The position numbers were made by a program, and so were the translations under genes. A stretch of 64,000 nt of DNA from Anas platyrhynchos (Eukaryota > Chordata > Aves > Anseriformes > Anatidae), in contig NC_092597.1 of NCBI RefSeq assembly GCF_047663525.1, positions 24,638,501 to 24,702,500 on the forward strand. Direction: 5' to 3'. The notes beneath the pieces were generated by a model. It ran no database searches, was not told the origin of the DNA, and was given only the letters and a program-made list of their open reading frames with translations. This document shows, piece by piece, positions 4,201 through 41,400 of this stretch. Within the stretch, counting starts at the first letter, position 1, and each line of letters begins with the position of its first letter.

Positions 4201-7200
4201 ATCTAGAGAATATCATTACAATATGAGTTATGAAAGAGAAGAACAAACTAGACATGATCTAGTTTTTAGCTGCTCCCTTCAGATTACCTCTTCATGTCAC
4301 ACATGTGCTTTTCTGTATCATTGGGTTTCGTCTGCAAATTGAAAGGAAAAGAAATTATAATATCAGAATTAGACTACTTCAAACTCAAGTTAATTTATGT
4401 AATCTAAATATCATTAATTATAGCTAGTAATACCTCGCTTATTTTCATCCATGTAGCCAGTAATTCCTCTGTCAATTTGCTGTTCTCCACCTGATTTTCT
4501 GGAACCATTGGCAGAGGTCCGGCTGGAACCTGAGGCTGTGGAATGACATTAGCAATTTTCGTAACTCAGATCAACTAAAACTATGAATAAAGTGATTTTT
4601 TATTTTCTGCACACCAGATATTCTGAGAACACATCCACTCTAACACAAGAAACAAACGTTAAAAAAAGATTTTACCTCGAGGATTTACCTCGTCATTGAC
4701 ACTAACGCACCTTCCCGAATGTCTGAAGGTTTTTGCAATAAGCTTAGCAAAGGCAAGCGTTATGAATTAACTTCACTAGCACTGTTTTTCTAACACTTCT
4801 AAGCATATGCACAGGCTTCTGTAACCCATCCCCATCTTACATATTCCTCCTCTGCCTCTGGCTGGGTAGGCACCTCCAGCACTGAGGGCTCTACTCTTTG
4901 CAGGCGCATAGACCTTCGTCGTACTGTTTCCTCTTCTGCCTTCTTAGGCTTAGGTCTACAACAAGTAAAACATTTCAAAAATTACACAGTTAGATAACGT
5001 GAGCCCTCAGCATTTAAGTAAAACACTACGGAATAGGTTCTTATCTGCAGCTCTGACACCTCAATGTTCTGACCGACTTTAGGAGCACTGCGATTACTTT
5101 CTCTTTCAGCGATTGCAACAACAAAAAGACCAGTTAGCAATGCATATATACTGATGACATGTTTCCCTTGTAATACATCCTGCCACTGCTGCTTTTCTTC
5201 CCCATCCTCATTTATAATTCATCCTTCCACTCATTATCTAGCCACCTTTTTCTCTCCTTTCCTTGCTTATCTTACTCTCTATTTTGTATTTCAGCTCATT
5301 TTTCGGCTTTGCCTAACATTGCTTTGGCACTGCCAAATGTCTTTTCTTTAACAATTGCTTAGCCTATCCCTTCCATCTGTTTCTCCCCCCAAACCCTTTC
5401 TTTCCCATGCCCTTTCCTATTATTTGTTCTCATCATTTAACATTTCTTTCTTTAGCCATCATGCAGAAAAATCACAAGTAGAAAAAAAAAAATTACCTTA
5501 ATACAAATATCACAAAAATAGCACGTTCTGTAATTTGATGAAAAGGGCATTCATACTAGCATTTTCTTTCCATAGGATGGCAGAGGAGAGCCACTACCTT
5601 GGAGCTACCTATTTACAAATTCATACAGCTCAGGATAATCAGTTATGCAGATTCAGCTTTGGAGAGTGACTCATCATTAGCTCTCCCTCTTGCTGGTATC
5701 TGCTATGTGCAGGTGGTAGCACTAAAACAGTTAAAACTCAATGAAGGAACATTGGTATGAGTCTCATACACGGTTGTTTTACCTTTTAGTGACATTAGAT
5801 TGTCGTCTAGTTGCAATTTTTTGAAGTCTTGCAGCTGACTTAAAAAGAAAAAATAAAAGATTAAAAATATATCTAACAAGCATAAAAGGCCAACCTGTAT
5901 AAAGGCTGCAGTAAACTATATTGTAATTGCTTATAACAACAACAAAAAGGAACTTTTAAATATCAGATTGTGTTTTTTCTGCTTTGCACTGGTCTTCTAC
6001 GTACCCTCAAGAATTCCCCTGTTTCACCCTAGCTGATGGCTCTGGCCTTTGCCCTGCCGGCAGCGCTGTGGCTGCAGGCAGACGTGCCTTTGCTGACCTC
6101 TCTGAGGGTAACTGGGAAGAGTCATTTTTACTCAAGCTGCAGTCTTGGTGGTAAGGAAGGAGCCTCGCTGCCTCCCAGACAGGCCCAGCCACAGCTGTGT
6201 GCTCGGCTGCCCCTGGGCCAGTGCTCAGCTGGCCCTGCTGGGATTTTGCTCACCCAGCTTTCCGTGGGGTCACCTAACGGCCTCCCCTCCTTGGAGGGAG
6301 CTAACTAACAACATGAGTGCTAATGTTTAATCCAGTCAGGGCAGTGCTGATGCCCTCTCCTGATGCCCCTGTCACTATCAGGGCAGGGTTTCCCAACGCG
6401 GGGCAGCAGGCTGCTTCCTGGGGCACAAGTGCCCTTACGGGAGGGAGCACGGTGGCTGACACTGGGTAGGATCTATACTAACCTCGTGCAGCTTTAAGGC
6501 AGCGAAGAATTTTGCATTTTCTGTAATGTTCTTTAGTCTTTTCCTTTCATAAGCTGATAGCTGTTGGTATCCATCCTACAAAAAGAAAAGTGAGACAGAC
6601 CTCAGCACAGTTACACGGCACGCCAGAGCTGGCCCAGGCTTCTGGGCTCTGAGTCTCTAGTGATTGTCTGGATTGTCCAGAGCTGGTTTGATGCACGTTT
6701 AAACAAATAAAAGGCCCACGAACCACCGGGGTGATCCCCTATCAGTGCTGGTCTATAGAGGTAGTAGCACACATTACAGCACCGACTGCTAGCATCAGTC
6801 CTGCGAGAGGGGCCAGCTCATCAGAACCTTGCTACAACTGAACCAAAGCTGGTGCAAAACAAATAGCAACTTACAGCTTGGCAATACGGCAAATGTGGCA
6901 CCTAAACAGAACACAGCTTTGTTCGTTTCCATCTTTGAGAGAAAAAGGCGGCCAGGACAAGTTGAAATGGTGATTTTAACACGAATGAGCACTGACAAAA
7001 CCGTCGTATCTCATCTCTGTACCCAGCCACCGCGTTCCCCAGGAGCTGGTTATGACCCTCGGGAAGGCGCTGGTGGTTTTGGCAGCGGCTCGTGCAGCTC
7101 TGCGGCCCCTCAGCCGTTCCCAAGGGGTAAAACGCGCTCTGCCGAGGCCCAAGGAGGCCAAAACGCCCCCAGCCTCGCCTTCCCAGCCCCCCTCCGCTCA

Positions 7201-7688
7201 CCTGCGCCTCTCCCCCGCCGTCGCTGCCGTCGCTCTCCGCGTCCCAGCCGCCGTCCGAGCCGCTGCCATGAGGGGAGGCGGCGGCGGTGGGGGCCGGGCC
7301 GGGCGGGCTGCCGGGGGGCGTCCCGGGGGGCTCGGCGCGGAGCCTCTTGCCCGCCGCCTCCCCCTCAGCGTCGTCGTAGGCGCCCAGCAGCCGCTTCTGA
7401 GGCATCCTGCGGCCCGCCACAGAGAGCGGCGTGAGCAGCACCCTCAGCTGCCGGCCCGGCTCCGCTCGGCGCCCGCCCTGCTCCGGGCCTCGCCTCAGCT
7501 CCGCGCCGCCGCTCGGGGTGCGCTCCTGAGGGGATGAACGGGGAGCGGTGAGCGGGGGCCCATCCTCCATCATCACCACCACTACCACCACCCCTAACGG
7601 CACCCACACGGCCACGGACCTGCTCCCGCTGCTGGCTGAGAGGCGACAGCTCCTCGGGAACGGCCTCGCTGGGCTCCGACAGCGCCAT
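1064..7688 (-). CDS. WDR76: WDR76, WD repeat-containing protein 76 (3' end missing)
   Basis: Eleven coding exons: 7620-7688, 7202-7525, 6483-6575, 5783-5838, 4841-4955, 4434-4535, 4288-4331, 4049-4202, 2257-2409, 1610-1824, 1064-1216. They encode about 492 residues and stop in phase 2, so the last WD blades and the stop lie beyond the left edge (human protein about 626 aa). The N-terminal ~130 residues are Ala/Gly/Pro-rich and poorly conserved. Family hallmarks follow: LSAYERKRLKN, ESAARLQKI, RRRSMRLQRVEP, then WD blades including LIFVAAGDKYGQIGLW, VDRRTPGTS, VHVHPVNKQYF and SVASAYFSPVTGNRVV. WDR76 is a nuclear protein reported to bind CUL4-DDB1 and chromatin remodelers and to gather at DNA damage; those roles come from the family. 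The start ATG (7686-7688) is the first in a CpG-rich exon with a good donor. Next upstream is the 3' end of BLM, 1.55 kb away, on the same strand. Confidence 0.93.
1610..1824 (-). CDS. WDR76: WDR76 coding exon 10 (WD blade)
   Basis: 215 nt, phase 0 to 2. It encodes SSFDFLEDNASTAIVGYWNG, VVDRRTPGTS and HVHPVNKQYFVAAGS, all closely matching WDR76 of other vertebrates. The donor is GTATGT. Confidence 0.95.
2257..2409 (-). CDS. WDR76: WDR76 coding exon 9 (WD blade)
   Basis: 51 codons, phase 0. It encodes the blade CMHFSPSNPAHLLSLSHDVL followed by RCGD. Against the mammalian pattern (D-G-T-L-R) the D-V-L-R turn is one residue shorter. Confidence 0.95.
4049..4202 (-). CDS. WDR76: WDR76 coding exon 8 (first WD blade)
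   Basis: 154 nt, phase 2 to 0. It encodes VCSVAIHPSESLIFVAAGDK followed by YGQIGLWNV, a clear WD blade. The donor is GTAAGT. Confidence 0.95.
4288..4331 (-). CDS. WDR76: WDR76 coding exon 7
   Basis: A 44-nt exon, phase 0 to 2, encoding TKPNDTEKHMCDMK plus a split Arg codon. It is needed to keep the frame between exons 6 and 8. Confidence 0.87.
4434..4535 (-). CDS. WDR76: WDR76 coding exon 6
   Basis: 102 nt, phase 0. It encodes PQVPAGPLPMVPENQ...LLATWMKISE, the linker ahead of the WD domain. A second in-frame acceptor 6 nt further in (4529) would drop two residues. Confidence 0.85.
4841..4955 (-). CDS. WDR76: WDR76 coding exon 5
   Basis: 115 nt, phase 2 to 0. It encodes the basic RRRSMRLQRVEPSVLE segment followed by a Glu-rich tail. 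The donor is GTAAGA. Confidence 0.92.
5783..5838 (-). CDS. WDR76: WDR76 coding exon 4
   Basis: 56 nt, phase 0 to 2, encoding SAARLQKIATRRQSNVTK plus a split Arg codon. An alternative acceptor AG 4 nt further in gives the wrong frame; the chosen one restores the conserved ESAARL. Confidence 0.9.
6483..6575 (-). CDS. WDR76: WDR76 coding exon 3
   Basis: 31 codons, phase 0. It carries the family motif LSAYERKRLKNITENAKFFA, which is close to the mammalian sequence. Confidence 0.93.
7202..7525 (-). CDS. WDR76: WDR76 coding exon 2
   Basis: 108 codons, phase 0 at both ends, acceptor CCCCTCAG, donor GTGAGC. It encodes a low-complexity Ala/Gly/Pro/Arg-rich segment with one basic patch (RRMPQKRLLGAYDD) and an acidic Ser/Asp/Gly-rich tail. 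It lies inside a CpG island. Confidence 0.82.
7557..7600. repeat. Short (CAT/CAC)n-like tract
   Basis: A run of cat/cac triplets in WDR76 intron 1, low complexity. Confidence 0.6.
7620..7688 (-). CDS. WDR76: WDR76 coding exon 1
   Basis: It encodes 23 residues from the start ATG (MALSEPSEAVPEELSPLSQQ...), phase 0, with donor GTCCGT. The short acidic start is not conserved with mammals, so the start rests on position and splice phase. Confidence 0.8.
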
Positions 7689-7708
7689 GGCGGGGCCGGG
7701 CTGAGGCG

Positions 7709-7793
7709 GGGGCCGCCCCTCACGGAGCGGGGGGCGGGAGGCGGGAAGCGGCGCTTCCCGCCTCCCGCCCCCCGCTCCGTGAGGGGCGGCCCC
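7709..7793. repeat. Perfect 85-bp palindrome (42-bp arms, 1-bp centre)
   Basis: Bases 7709-7750 are the exact reverse complement of 7752-7793, with one G (7751) at the centre. Symmetry breaks at once on both sides (7708 and 7794 are both G). The arms are very GC-rich. It begins 21 nt upstream of the WDR76 ATG, so it would fall in the 5' UTR or core promoter and could fold as a cruciform or an RNA hairpin. A fold-back sequencing or assembly artefact is an equally serious explanation. Confidence 0.95.
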
Positions 7794-7984
7794 GGTGACT
7801 TGAAGGAGTTTCGGGGGTCTGAGGAAGCGAAGAGCCCAAGGGGAGTTTGTGGAAGCCTTACAGTACCTAAAAGTGGCTTTAGAAATAAAAAAAATAAAAA
7901 CGGAGAGCGACTTTTTAGTCATGTAATGATAGGACAAGGGGGTGGGTTAAAAAAGAGAGATTTAGGTGAGGGGTTTGGAGGAAA

Positions 7985-8139
7985 TGCTTCGCTCATGGGG
8001 TGGTGAAGAATTTCCCTCAGGTTGCCCTGAGAGGTTGTGGATGGCCCATCCCTAGAAGGGTTCAAGGCTAAGTGGAATGGGTAACCTGGTATATTCGGTG
8101 GTGGCCCTGTCACACAGGAATGAGATGATGTTTAAGGTG
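7985..8139 (+). mobile_element. CR1 LINE 3' fragment (degenerate)
   Basis: The text ctgagaggttgtggatggcc, followed by catccctagaagggttcaag and a trailing gatgatgtttaaggt, follows the 3' end of avian CR1 elements. It is diverged and lacks the terminal octamer repeats. A second CR1 end follows directly. Confidence 0.72.
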
Positions 8140-8402
8140 ACAGGACGAGGGGGAATGGGCTAAAGTTGTGCCAGGGGAGTTTTAGGCTGGATGTTAGGAA
8201 GAACTTCTTTACCAAAAGGGTTGTTAGGCACTGGAACAGGCTGCCCAGGGAGGTGGTGGAGTCACCGTCCCTGGAAGTCTTCAAAAGACGTTTAGATGTA
8301 GAGCTTAGGGATATGGTTTAGTGGGACTGTTAGCGTTAGGTCAGAGGTTGGACTCGATGTTCTTGAGGTCTCTTCCAACCTAGAAATTCTGTAATTCTGT
8401 AA
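8140..8402 (+). mobile_element. CR1 LINE 3' end
   Basis: Hallmark CR1 tail text: ggatgttaggaagaacttct, actggaacaggctgcccagg, ggttggactcgatgttcttg and aggtctcttccaacctag, ending in the microsatellite-like attctgtaattctgta. This is a 5'-truncated, non-coding copy, as is usual for this family. It is plus-oriented, opposite to the genes. Confidence 0.93.
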
Positions 8403-9244
8403 CCTGAGCTATTCAGTGATTCAGAATCCACACAGGCACGAGATCAAAATCTTTGCTAGACAGCCAAGAGAAGTGATTAATTGTACTCTACAGCTTTATG
8501 CTGCAGCTTGGCATGTTCAGGATAGAAAAAGTGTACTTTTTTTTTTTAAATAGTGAGGTTGATTGAAACAGCCTTGAGCACACTTCACTCACAGGACAGG
8601 TTATATAAAGTGCTTGCTATCAGACTCCTTGCTCAGCAACAGCTGAAGGAATCCTCTGCTCCAGTCAAGCAAACCAACAGTGGGGCTGGTTCTGCCCCTG
8701 CTGTGTCAGGCATTTCATTGAAATGCACATGTAGGAACACATATCTAAACCCTACCTGAACTTAGCATGGCTGCCTTGTGCAAGGCTGGAAGGTGAAAGA
8801 AGGGCACATCAAATGCCCTTATCACAGCTGTGATGATAACACAGCTCCACAGTGTAAAAACAAACAGGATATCTAAAAGAGCACTCCCAGGACAGCACTT
8901 GGCACTTCAGCAGACACTCCAGCCCCAGTATCTGGGGAAAAAAAAAAGGAAGCTTACAACTGTTAATCATATTTTATACGTCAGGTTAACATCCCAAGAC
9001 TTAAATTCTCAGAACTCCTCTGCTATGTAGCTCTAAATTACTTAGACATCTAGCAAGGGAGAAGAACAGAGGCAACCACATCTCTAGGATTCACAGTTCC
9101 AGTAACTGCTTTTGATTCATGATCTCAAGTGTATCCTGGAGGTAGCTTTAATGCAGGCTTACAGGGATTATTTTCCCAGAAACAGTAGGGCATCTAGAAC
9201 AAGTCAGAACTCATATTTGTAGTAGAAAAAAGGTCTGAAAAATT

Positions 9245-9390: not shown

Positions 9391-26802
<17,412 letters not shown>

Positions 26803-27968: not shown

Positions 27969-34215
<6,247 letters not shown>

Positions 34216-34430
34216 CGCCGAGCCGTGCCGAGCCGTGCCGAGCCGAGCCGTGCTGAGCCTCCGCGGGGCGGAGCGGGGCACCCGGGCCCTCCCCGGGGCG
34301 GGCCGGACCCGCCGCCGCCAGGCCCCCCCCCCCTCCCGGGCACGGCTCCCCCTGACCCCCCCCTCCGGAGCAGTGCGGGGCCGGCGTTTGGCCCCGGGTC
34401 AGGCTGATAAAAACGGCAGCAGTCCTCGTT
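34216..34430 (-). promoter_or_regulatory. CTSH: CTSH promoter region, between CTSH and the RASGRF1 3' end
   Basis: About 215 bp of very GC-rich DNA without a TATA box, starting with agccgtgccg repeats and containing several GGGCGG-like boxes. It must hold the CTSH promoter and lies directly downstream of the RASGRF1 poly(A) site. Confidence 0.55.
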
Positions 34431-38400: not shown

Positions 38401-41400
38401 AGGAGCTGAGCGAGCGCTGGAAAGCAAAAACCTCCAGCATGTACTAGGGATTGGCAATGCACAGCTCCCCTCCCCTACCTCCCACCTGCTCCTTCTCCAG
38501 TGCCTGTCTAAATTTACAGGTTTGGCTTTTTGCAGGAAAAAAAACAACCCACGATGTTTCAGATTCCGAGAGGAGCCCACACAGCAGCTCCGGCAGCCCC
38601 TGGGCTCAGTCAGACTCGATACAAGCTATTTCTGTACCAAGTAAACCAACACGTGAATTAATTTTGCTCGTCCATATTTGGTACAAGGAGCCCAAAAAAC
38701 AGCTTAAAGAAGCGCGCACACGTGTGCACTGCAACAACCACGCTTCAGAAAAGGCTCCTGGGGCTGCAGGCACAGCCAGCCTGACCCGACGGCTCAGCCC
38801 CGCGCCGTACCTGCTTGGAGACCTTGAGCCAGGTTTTCTTCAGGCGGAAGATGGCACTGCGGTTGAGGGAGGAGGTGATCTCCAGCACGGCGTTGTAGTT
38901 GTGCAGGCAGCGGCAGATGTCCGCCACGGCCACCCACTTCTCGATGGAGCTCACCCGCGCGTTGATCTCCTCGTTGCGCAGGATCTCAGACGCTATCAAG
39001 TTACTGACCTTCAGGAGGACAACAGCCCCAGCCCGGAGTCACAAGGGCAGCAGCCTCTCCCCCCCCCCTCAGCCACAAGCTTTCCAGCTTTTTTTTTTTA
39101 CAAGATTTCCCTTTTTTACAAGATTTCCCTTCGCTGCAGCAGCAATGGGCGCAGAGGAGCCCGCACGCCTGTGCCACGAGGCACCCCACCTGCGGTGTTC
39201 CCCAGAGCACCGAGCACCCATCGAGCACAGACGGAGGCAGACAAAACCTGCAGCCCCCCAGCCCTGGCCAGCACTGGGCCAGGTGTGGCTGTGCTGCTGC
39301 TCCTGCGCCCTGTCCCTGCCCGCTGGCCGCACTTACGTCATTGAAGTGCTTTGTGTTTTTCATGATATAAGGAGTCCTCTCGTTCTTCTCCAGCTTCATC
39401 CAGCCTTGCCCAAAGAACTCCCTGTGAAGGACACCGTGCACAGCAAGGCTCCTTCCCCATCATCCCGCAGCACCCAGGCCCTACCAGCCCTCGGGGTGGC
39501 CGGGACCCCCCGTCTGGGCTCCAGGTGGACCCTGCGGGTGGGGGGGTGCTGACCAGGGGATGGGAGGAGACCCCCCCGGCCACGTGGGACACTTACTCGT
39601 ACGGGATCTTCTTGAAGACGAGGTGATCGAGCAGCGTCAGCTGCTCCGCTATTTCCAGAGCCGAGTGGTTTTCAAAAGGCTCTGCTTTGACCCCCTCGGC
39701 CTAAACAGCAAAGGTGACAATTAGGGCCAATTCGTTAAGACTTCTCACAACTCAGACATGAAATAAGGCCAAAAGGAATCTCCAGCACCAAGAAATGCAC
39801 CAAGCAGCCAGGAGGGAGCTCACGGGGCAGGGTCCCCGCGTCCCACCAGCACTGGGATCTGCTGGCTTCGTGCAGACCGGGGAGCTTTAACCCCGTTACC
39901 ACCCGTGCACATGTGCGAACACCAAATTAACTCATCTCGACTGCAGTAATTAGGTGTCAGCTCCGGAACAGGCCCCGGCACGCTGATTTCTGTAACCGCT
40001 GCCTTTCTGCTCCACGTCTGTTTAATTAATAAAGCACCAGGGAGTCCCAGCTGGAGCAGCACCGCTCCACAAACATCCGTGGGGTCAGCAGAGCGAGGAC
40101 CCGGAGCTGCTCGGGATGGCTTTTCCAGGGGGTGTCCATAAAAGCAGCACGAACAGGGACATCTCTGTCCCCTGGCTGCAGCTGCCCAGGTGCCCGCAGC
40201 CCCCACCCAAACCGGGGGGGCTGGGGCACAGCCACAACTTCTGCCCCCAGACCCTGTACAGGGCCCTCACGCAGGGACCTGGCTGTGCTTTGGCACTAAC
40301 ACCTCAAATCCCTGCCCTGCCTGCAGGTCGCTGCTTTTCCTGGGTGTTTTCCTTAAAGCTGGGCTCCTCGGGAGGAGGGGCAGCCTGAAAACCTGGCTTT
40401 GTTTGTGCTCTCCCCTTCAAAGGCAGTTTGCAGCACCAGTGACTGCAGACAAAAGCCTAAAAAACCCTGCAGGGACTCAAAAACTCCAGAAACCAGGAGG
40501 CAGATCCGAAGGCACTGTTATTTCAGGTGCACCAGGCCGATTTGAAGTGGCTCTTGGTTTTTGCCTGGGAACCGGCCTTGTTTTTGCTAAACACAGAGAA
40601 GTGGCACCCGAGCTGCAGCCTCCCCGAGGTGTGTAAGCTCACTGCACGCTCCCTGGGCTCTGCTCACAGGCACAGCTCTGTGCTGGAGCCAGCTGTGCTA
40701 ACACTCATTGCTCTGAGCCCACACACAGGACGAGGACACGGGGACACCGGGAGCCACGGAGTTCTCCTGCGCCCCTCGGGCGGACGCATCCACATGTCTC
40801 TGCATTGGTGCTGCTGGGGGTGCAGATGGACAGACGTGGCTAGGGCAGGATCAGAGCTGCCAGCACCAGCAGCACACCCAGCTGTGCTCACTGCTGGCCC
40901 TGTCCTTAAACCTGTCCCTGCGCTGTGACACCCTGACAGTGGCCCTGGAGAGCTGCTCCCTGCCAGGCCGGGTGTGCACAGGTCCCGGGGGGCAGGAGGA
41001 ACCCCGCAGGGCCCTGTGCAGCCTCCATCTGTCCATCTGTCTGTCCAGCCACAGCAACAGGACCTCCTCAGGGCTGCTGTGCCGCCGCCTGCCCAGCACC
41101 TTGTCAAGCAACCAGAGGGAGTGAGGAGGGGGGAGGCACTCACCATCTGCACCACCTCCTCCAGGGTTATCTGGTTGTCTCCGGGATCCTCCTGCGTCAG
41201 AGTCCTGCAGCACAAAAAGGCAGCGCTGCCTCAGCTGGGGAAGCGGTGGGGCCACGGCGTGCCCTCGTGTTCATGGGCTTTCACAGGAACTTGGTGTTAA
41301 GCACCAGTGAGAGGCACAAGGGGTGGAGGTGGCATGCCCTGCTTGTGGCCCCCGCGCTCCCGTTGCTGCTCGGATGCGCAGGGACGCAGAGAGCCTTTCC

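Follow-up and report, generated by a model that had tools for sequence, protein, structure and literature searches.

Template-switch mutations, among them those described for MIR633 and for an insertion in insect rRNA, create a perfect stem in a single step out of neighboring sequence (PMC8794818). Similarly, short-range switches in the great apes, inferred by comparison of related genomes, leave a reverse-complement copy of adjacent sequence, often as a perfect inverted repeat (PMC7954356). Quasi-palindrome conversion in bacteria and yeast also proceeds by synthesis templated on a fold-back, yet it requires an imperfect repeat that already exists (PMC7202029; PMC3820800; PMC8604942). Additionally, false sequence has been described in bird genome assemblies at first exons and 5' flanks located in GC-rich islands (PMC5632298; PMC9516821).

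A palindrome at the putative WDR76 promoter of the duck, Anas platyrhynchos, shares a characteristic with each of these systems while differing from each. Like the first two it consists of a perfect stem made of adjacent sequence, but its arms are 42 bp long, 86% GC and located in a CpG-island promoter, and it is read from a single genome, in contrast to the great-ape events. An imperfect precursor of the kind on which quasi-palindrome conversion acts would be hypothetical for it. Finally, whereas the bird assembly reports describe gaps, sequence falsely copied in tandem and a contig in inverted orientation, the duck case is a gap-free, perfect palindrome of 85 bp. Of the kinds already known, it behaves like a perfect inverted repeat derived by template switching and, judged from its sequence, is probably one.

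The locus was analyzed within a stretch of 64,000 nucleotides, referred to below as the window. Specifically, positions 7709-7750 are followed by G7751 and then, at 7752-7793, by the exact reverse complement of the first 42 bases, such that 42 of 42 pairs are complementary; the perfect 85-bp palindrome reported in the earlier note is thus borne out. Its placement 21 nt before the WDR76 start codon and within a CpG island, also claimed there, is likewise confirmed: the edge at 7709 is position -21 relative to the A of the ATG at 7688, with 20 nt between the two, and GC content drops from 0.77 to 0.44 at the right edge of the palindrome, where the best change-point in the interval 7400-8000 is 7795 and the six best are 7793-7799. 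The features of the palindrome and of the adjoining gene are as follows.

7709-7750, plus strand: left arm of the palindrome, proximal to WDR76, read from the sequence
7751, no strand: spacer of one base, G, read from the sequence
7752-7793, plus strand: right arm, reverse-complementary to the left arm at every base, with the GC change-point at its outer edge
7794-7925, no strand: upstream flank, GC 0.43, with no palindromic match to the left side
7620-7688, minus strand: putative coding part of WDR76 exon 1, 23 codons, from frame and splice consensus
7526-7619, minus strand: putative WDR76 intron 1, GT...AG, 94 bp, from splice consensus

The start codon occupies 7688 to 7686 on the minus strand in the context CCGCCATGG, in which G at both -3 and +4 makes a strong Kozak match. 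Putative exon 1 reads MALSEPSEAVPEELSPLSQQREQ and ends in CAG|GT at 7620/7619; an acceptor, CCCCTCAG, precedes 7525, from which exon 2 begins in phase 0 with a frame that runs through MPQKRLLGAYDD. At 94 bp (7526-7619), the putative first intron is very short. The name WDR76 rests mainly on the call made in the earlier note and on a fragment of human WDR76, to which an exon farther on, at 6560 to 6483, shows 77% identity over 26 aa. A Pfam search of one supposed WDR76 exon returned a single WD-repeat match, to the WDR75 model, that stayed below threshold at 16.6 of 45 bits, and another supposed exon gave no Pfam match. Among the matches listed by a literature search, itself a weak instrument for absence, no title concerned WDR76 or a palindrome there.

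By any measure applied, arms of this length are out of the ordinary. For arms of 42 bp and spacers of 0-20, the analytic expectation in 64 kb is 2.9e-16, and Markov sequences of island composition (n=300, 794 bp) contained best arms of 6-12 bp. Within the window, allowing up to 20 nt of spacer, the runner-up has perfect arms of only 11 bp. When the window was combined with 28 sampled loci of 10 kb (344,000 bases in all, locus L001 being omitted as it overlaps the window), the next arms measured 17 bp (a GGA repeat), 15 bp and 14 bp (poly-T), the first and last of these being of low complexity. The palindrome is an outlier by a wide margin in these 344,000 bases, and the rarity ascribed to it earlier holds in the sequence examined, a sample that covers about 0.03% of the genome and includes 20 CpG islands of at least 300 bp, 14 of them inside the window. 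Composition sets it apart as well. AT-rich sequence predominates among the long perfect repeats of eukaryotes (PMC13155455; PMC7680136), which renders a palindrome of 86% GC atypical; in a human palindrome catalogue only 2% of entries exceed 80% GC, though this catalogue permits four mismatches and no spacer, so that its counts are not directly comparable with the present case (PMC7680136).

Several other identities for the sequence were considered. A search of both strands of the 1.26-Gb assembly (42 contigs), which skips very common words, located the 85-mer at a single site, and further copies, as expected of a dispersed inverted-repeat (MITE-like) element, were not found there; a single location gives no sign of a dispersed element, and a dispersed hairpin was consequently rejected. 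A plasmid origin was rejected as the interval 7600-7900 has no match among plasmids, and a viral origin as the central 23-mer has no exact match in viral contigs. Rfam returned no miRNA precursor at gathering score in 7400-8500; with E of 1 or less the interval has 23 matches, all of which lie inside 7708-7793 and fall short of gathering, the top one being mir-H1 with 48.8 of 97 bits on both strands. These sub-threshold matches are attributable to the long stem, and a known miRNA was rejected. Searches for bacterial-style promoters and terminators, using models that are not applicable to bird DNA, found none.

The reading that we favor, with modest confidence, is that the palindrome is real, that it is a recent fold-back duplication produced by one template switch, and that its effect is a mild, transcriptional one. 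While the WDR76 promoter was being replicated, or resynthesized in repair, the polymerase would have jumped a few bases to a template of reverse-complement sequence, read it backwards for 42 bp and then returned to the original template; a single event of this type, known as a template-switch mutation, would leave a perfect inverted repeat with a 1-nt center. Among the processes described, short-range template switching is, to our knowledge, the best fit for an origin in one step. Two properties of such an event are observed directly, in that the right arm is a perfect reverse-complement copy of the sequence beside it (42/42 pairs) and in that its source is local and its limits abrupt, the symmetry ending at 7709 and at 7793. 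The GC change-point at the right edge is expected if a piece of the island was copied outward into a flank of lower GC, though it would equally suit the loss of an island piece. Either a switch to the other strand or a snap-back on AAGC-GGC-GCTT, with 3 nt in the loop, would fit a spacer of 1 nt. In repair-deficient yeast, inverted repeats of 5-9 bp separated by spacers of 3-12 bp can drive large palindromic duplications (PMC7999016, a review). Counted against a real template switch are the atypically high GC content noted above, in a class of promoter at which bird assemblies fail, and the finding that the largest pattern of this type described in PMC8794818, at 59 bp, did not pass quality control.

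Regarding age, the earlier note held that a real palindrome would mark a very recent inverted duplication. Such a duplication finds support as the likeliest origin if the palindrome is real, while its recency would follow from perfect identity alone. Substitution rates of 1e-9 to 4e-9 per site per year were used for this estimate: at 2e-9, zero differences in 42 pairs set the 95% upper bound on age at about 18 Myr, with a range of 9-36 Myr for rates from 4e-9 to 1e-9, figures that homogenization of the arms in vivo would invalidate. Homogenization is central to an account that we consider improbable, namely that an older quasi-palindrome owes its perfect arms to recurrent correction in vivo, by template switching or by gene conversion of one arm by the other. 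When templates are switched locally in vivo, the typical result is that a near-perfect inverted repeat becomes a perfect one (PMC7954356; PMC3820800; PMC8604942). Such an origin sits poorly, however, with 42 pairs that include no mismatch or indel, and with the sequence outside the arms, in which no decaying remnant of symmetry was seen. Specifically, comparison of the reverse complement of 7509-7708 with 7794-7993 revealed no further symmetry (local score 14), base shuffles (n=300) having a mean score of 16.8 and reaching at least the observed value in 289 of 300 cases. A longer, decayed palindrome outside 7709-7793 was rejected for the same abruptness on both sides.

The same boundaries bear upon the question of artefact. 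It is possible, though distinctly less probable than a real fold-back duplication, that the second arm, a longer spacer now lost, or the perfection of the arms was generated by hairpin extension during library preparation, by polishing or by gap closing at a GC-rich promoter. The prior likelihood of trouble at such sites is high: in earlier assemblies of zebra finch, hummingbird and platypus, missing sequence climbs to 40-70% at the transcription start site, and one inverted contig carrying first exons, that of KCTD15, is described in the same report (PMC9516821). In addition, GC-rich bird promoters have been found to harbor gaps flanked by erroneous sequence together with false tandem duplications (PMC5632298), and in libraries from FFPE tumor samples, hairpins between nearby palindromic sequences give rise to inverted chimeric reads (PMC8674242). 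Of the 18 contigs seen in the present assembly, 11 have sizes in multiples of 2,500, which suggests Hi-C scaffolding.

Against these precedents stands the requirement for two false junctions, one at the center and one at 7793/7794. The earlier note had envisaged a snap-back in which all sequence beyond 7751 would be misjoined, and this form of the artefact is weakened, since the copy stops after 42 bp and a second junction is needed. As non-palindromic sequence borders the copy at either end, a simple snap-back with one junction would offer no explanation; an alternative to the second false join would be a real inverted repeat from which a spacer was lost or mismatches were polished away. No N base is present at or beside the palindrome or anywhere else in the 64-kb window, but a closed gap would leave no trace. 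The other islands of the window, including a 500-bp stretch at 0.79 GC, were likewise passed without N, as was one sampled locus with a GC content of 0.66; short N runs, which may be assembly gaps, occur in 2 of the 28 sampled loci. Finally, as no other perfect arm exceeds 17 bp in the 344,000 bases, a small sample of 20 islands, there is little to suggest a general tendency of the assembly toward fold-backs.

If the palindrome is a real product of template switching, its likeliest consequence would concern the motifs that it carries, which are listed below.

7740-7747, minus strand: E2F-type site TTCCCGCC, left copy, by sequence match
7755-7762, plus strand: E2F-type site TTCCCGCC, right, inverted copy, by sequence match
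7713-7718, minus strand: GC box GGGCGG, mirrored at 7784-7789 on the plus strand
7732-7737, plus strand: GC box GGGCGG, mirrored at 7765-7770 on the minus strand

The center of the palindrome reads GGCGGGAA-GCGGCGC-TTCCCGCC, an inverted pair of E2F-type sites with 7 nt between them, and the pair is flanked by four GC boxes in mirror order. In the 64-kb window, TTCCCGCC or its complement GGCGGGAA occurs only at 7740 and 7755. As a chance event in an island of such composition the site is not rare, being present in 112 of 2000 Markov islands generated by a model trained on 7000-7751, the left arm included. A CHR-like CTTGAA is present at 7799-7804, far from the E2F-type sites. In human, WDR76 appears as a G1/S gene in the tables of PMC5453983, Table 2 of which names 49 genes including WDR76, with only CDKN2A given there as not a DREAM target; WDR76 also appears in a table of genes chosen for promoter binding by RB and E2F1 (PMC9090780). 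An E2F site near the start of WDR76 is therefore to be expected. BLM, the neighbor of WDR76 in the duck, is found in the same RB-E2F target table (PMC9090780).

By the proposed template switch, a single E2F-type site would have become a mirrored pair, and the number of GC boxes would have risen from two to four. With an E2F/GC-box core promoter of this layout, initiation inside or just downstream of the palindrome is more likely, we infer, and most mRNAs would then lack the full hairpin. The likeliest consequence would be mild and transcriptional, and selection for the palindrome itself is not claimed.

The predicted RNA structures depend strongly upon where transcription starts. The palindrome as RNA has a predicted fold of -110 kcal/mol, and a transcript from 7793, comprising the leader and 30 nt of coding sequence, one of -132 kcal/mol; for the same leader and coding portion the prediction falls to -66 kcal/mol with a start at 7765, to -42 with a start at 7755 or 7751 and to -40 with a start at 7740. 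Any block to scanning is thus wholly dependent on start-site choice. The suggestion in the earlier note that a hairpin could block ribosome scanning on WDR76 mRNA accordingly survives for transcripts that start in or upstream of the right arm and fails for those that start at or after the center, for which an ordinary GC-rich leader is predicted; on these folding models, a scanning block of the main WDR76 transcript is unlikely.

The predicted hairpin of -110 kcal/mol ending at -21, together with the mirror pairing of E2F-type sites 7 nt apart, might also be read as a selected device, either a WDR76 5' UTR hairpin acting as a barrier to scanning or an E2F/GC-box operator of dimeric form. We consider selection very unlikely: a full hairpin of such strength is expected to shut off any transcript carrying it, starts at or after the center escape the hairpin, and the doubling of motifs is an automatic consequence of any palindrome. 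Slimmer still is the chance that one template switch created a translational switch coupled to start-site choice, in which starts upstream of or within the right arm would yield WDR76 mRNA silenced by the hairpin while starts at or after the E2F pair would yield translatable mRNA.

Should the fold-back duplication prove real, it would represent an unusually long, GC-rich and perfect single-event mutation on a core promoter, in which mirror-doubled transcription factor sites could have altered expression in one stroke, and it would provide a natural test of the survival of long GC-rich palindromes in a vertebrate germ line. Should it be an artefact, gap-free promoters in bird assemblies may still hold false sequence.

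The surroundings of the palindrome offer further observations. To its right, a flank of about 130 bp is followed by what we take to be the 3' end of a CR1-like LINE (7926-8400), located immediately upstream of the WDR76 promoter and terminating in attctgtaattctg. BLM lies farther upstream on the same strand, as indicated by an RQC domain (E 4e-7) an HRDC match just under the cut-off, and an 83% match over 36 aa to a reference fragment; from reading frames, its extent is estimated at about 10900-26600 on the minus strand. WDR76 is the next gene downstream of BLM on that strand, at a distance of about 3 kb. In human, BLM and WDR76 lie far apart on chromosome 15, and MFAP1 is the head-to-head neighbor of WDR76; a head-to-head MFAP1 neighbor was rejected here, a human MFAP1 protein sequence having no match in the window. 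Elsewhere in the window, GC-rich imperfect tandem repeats with periods of 5, 15, 20 and 35 are assembled without N at 33904-34259, in the CpG island where a cathepsin-like gene has its 5' end (33464-33838 includes a match to the I29 propeptide), and a perfect 18-bp tandem repeat of 2.1 copies is present at 39094-39131.
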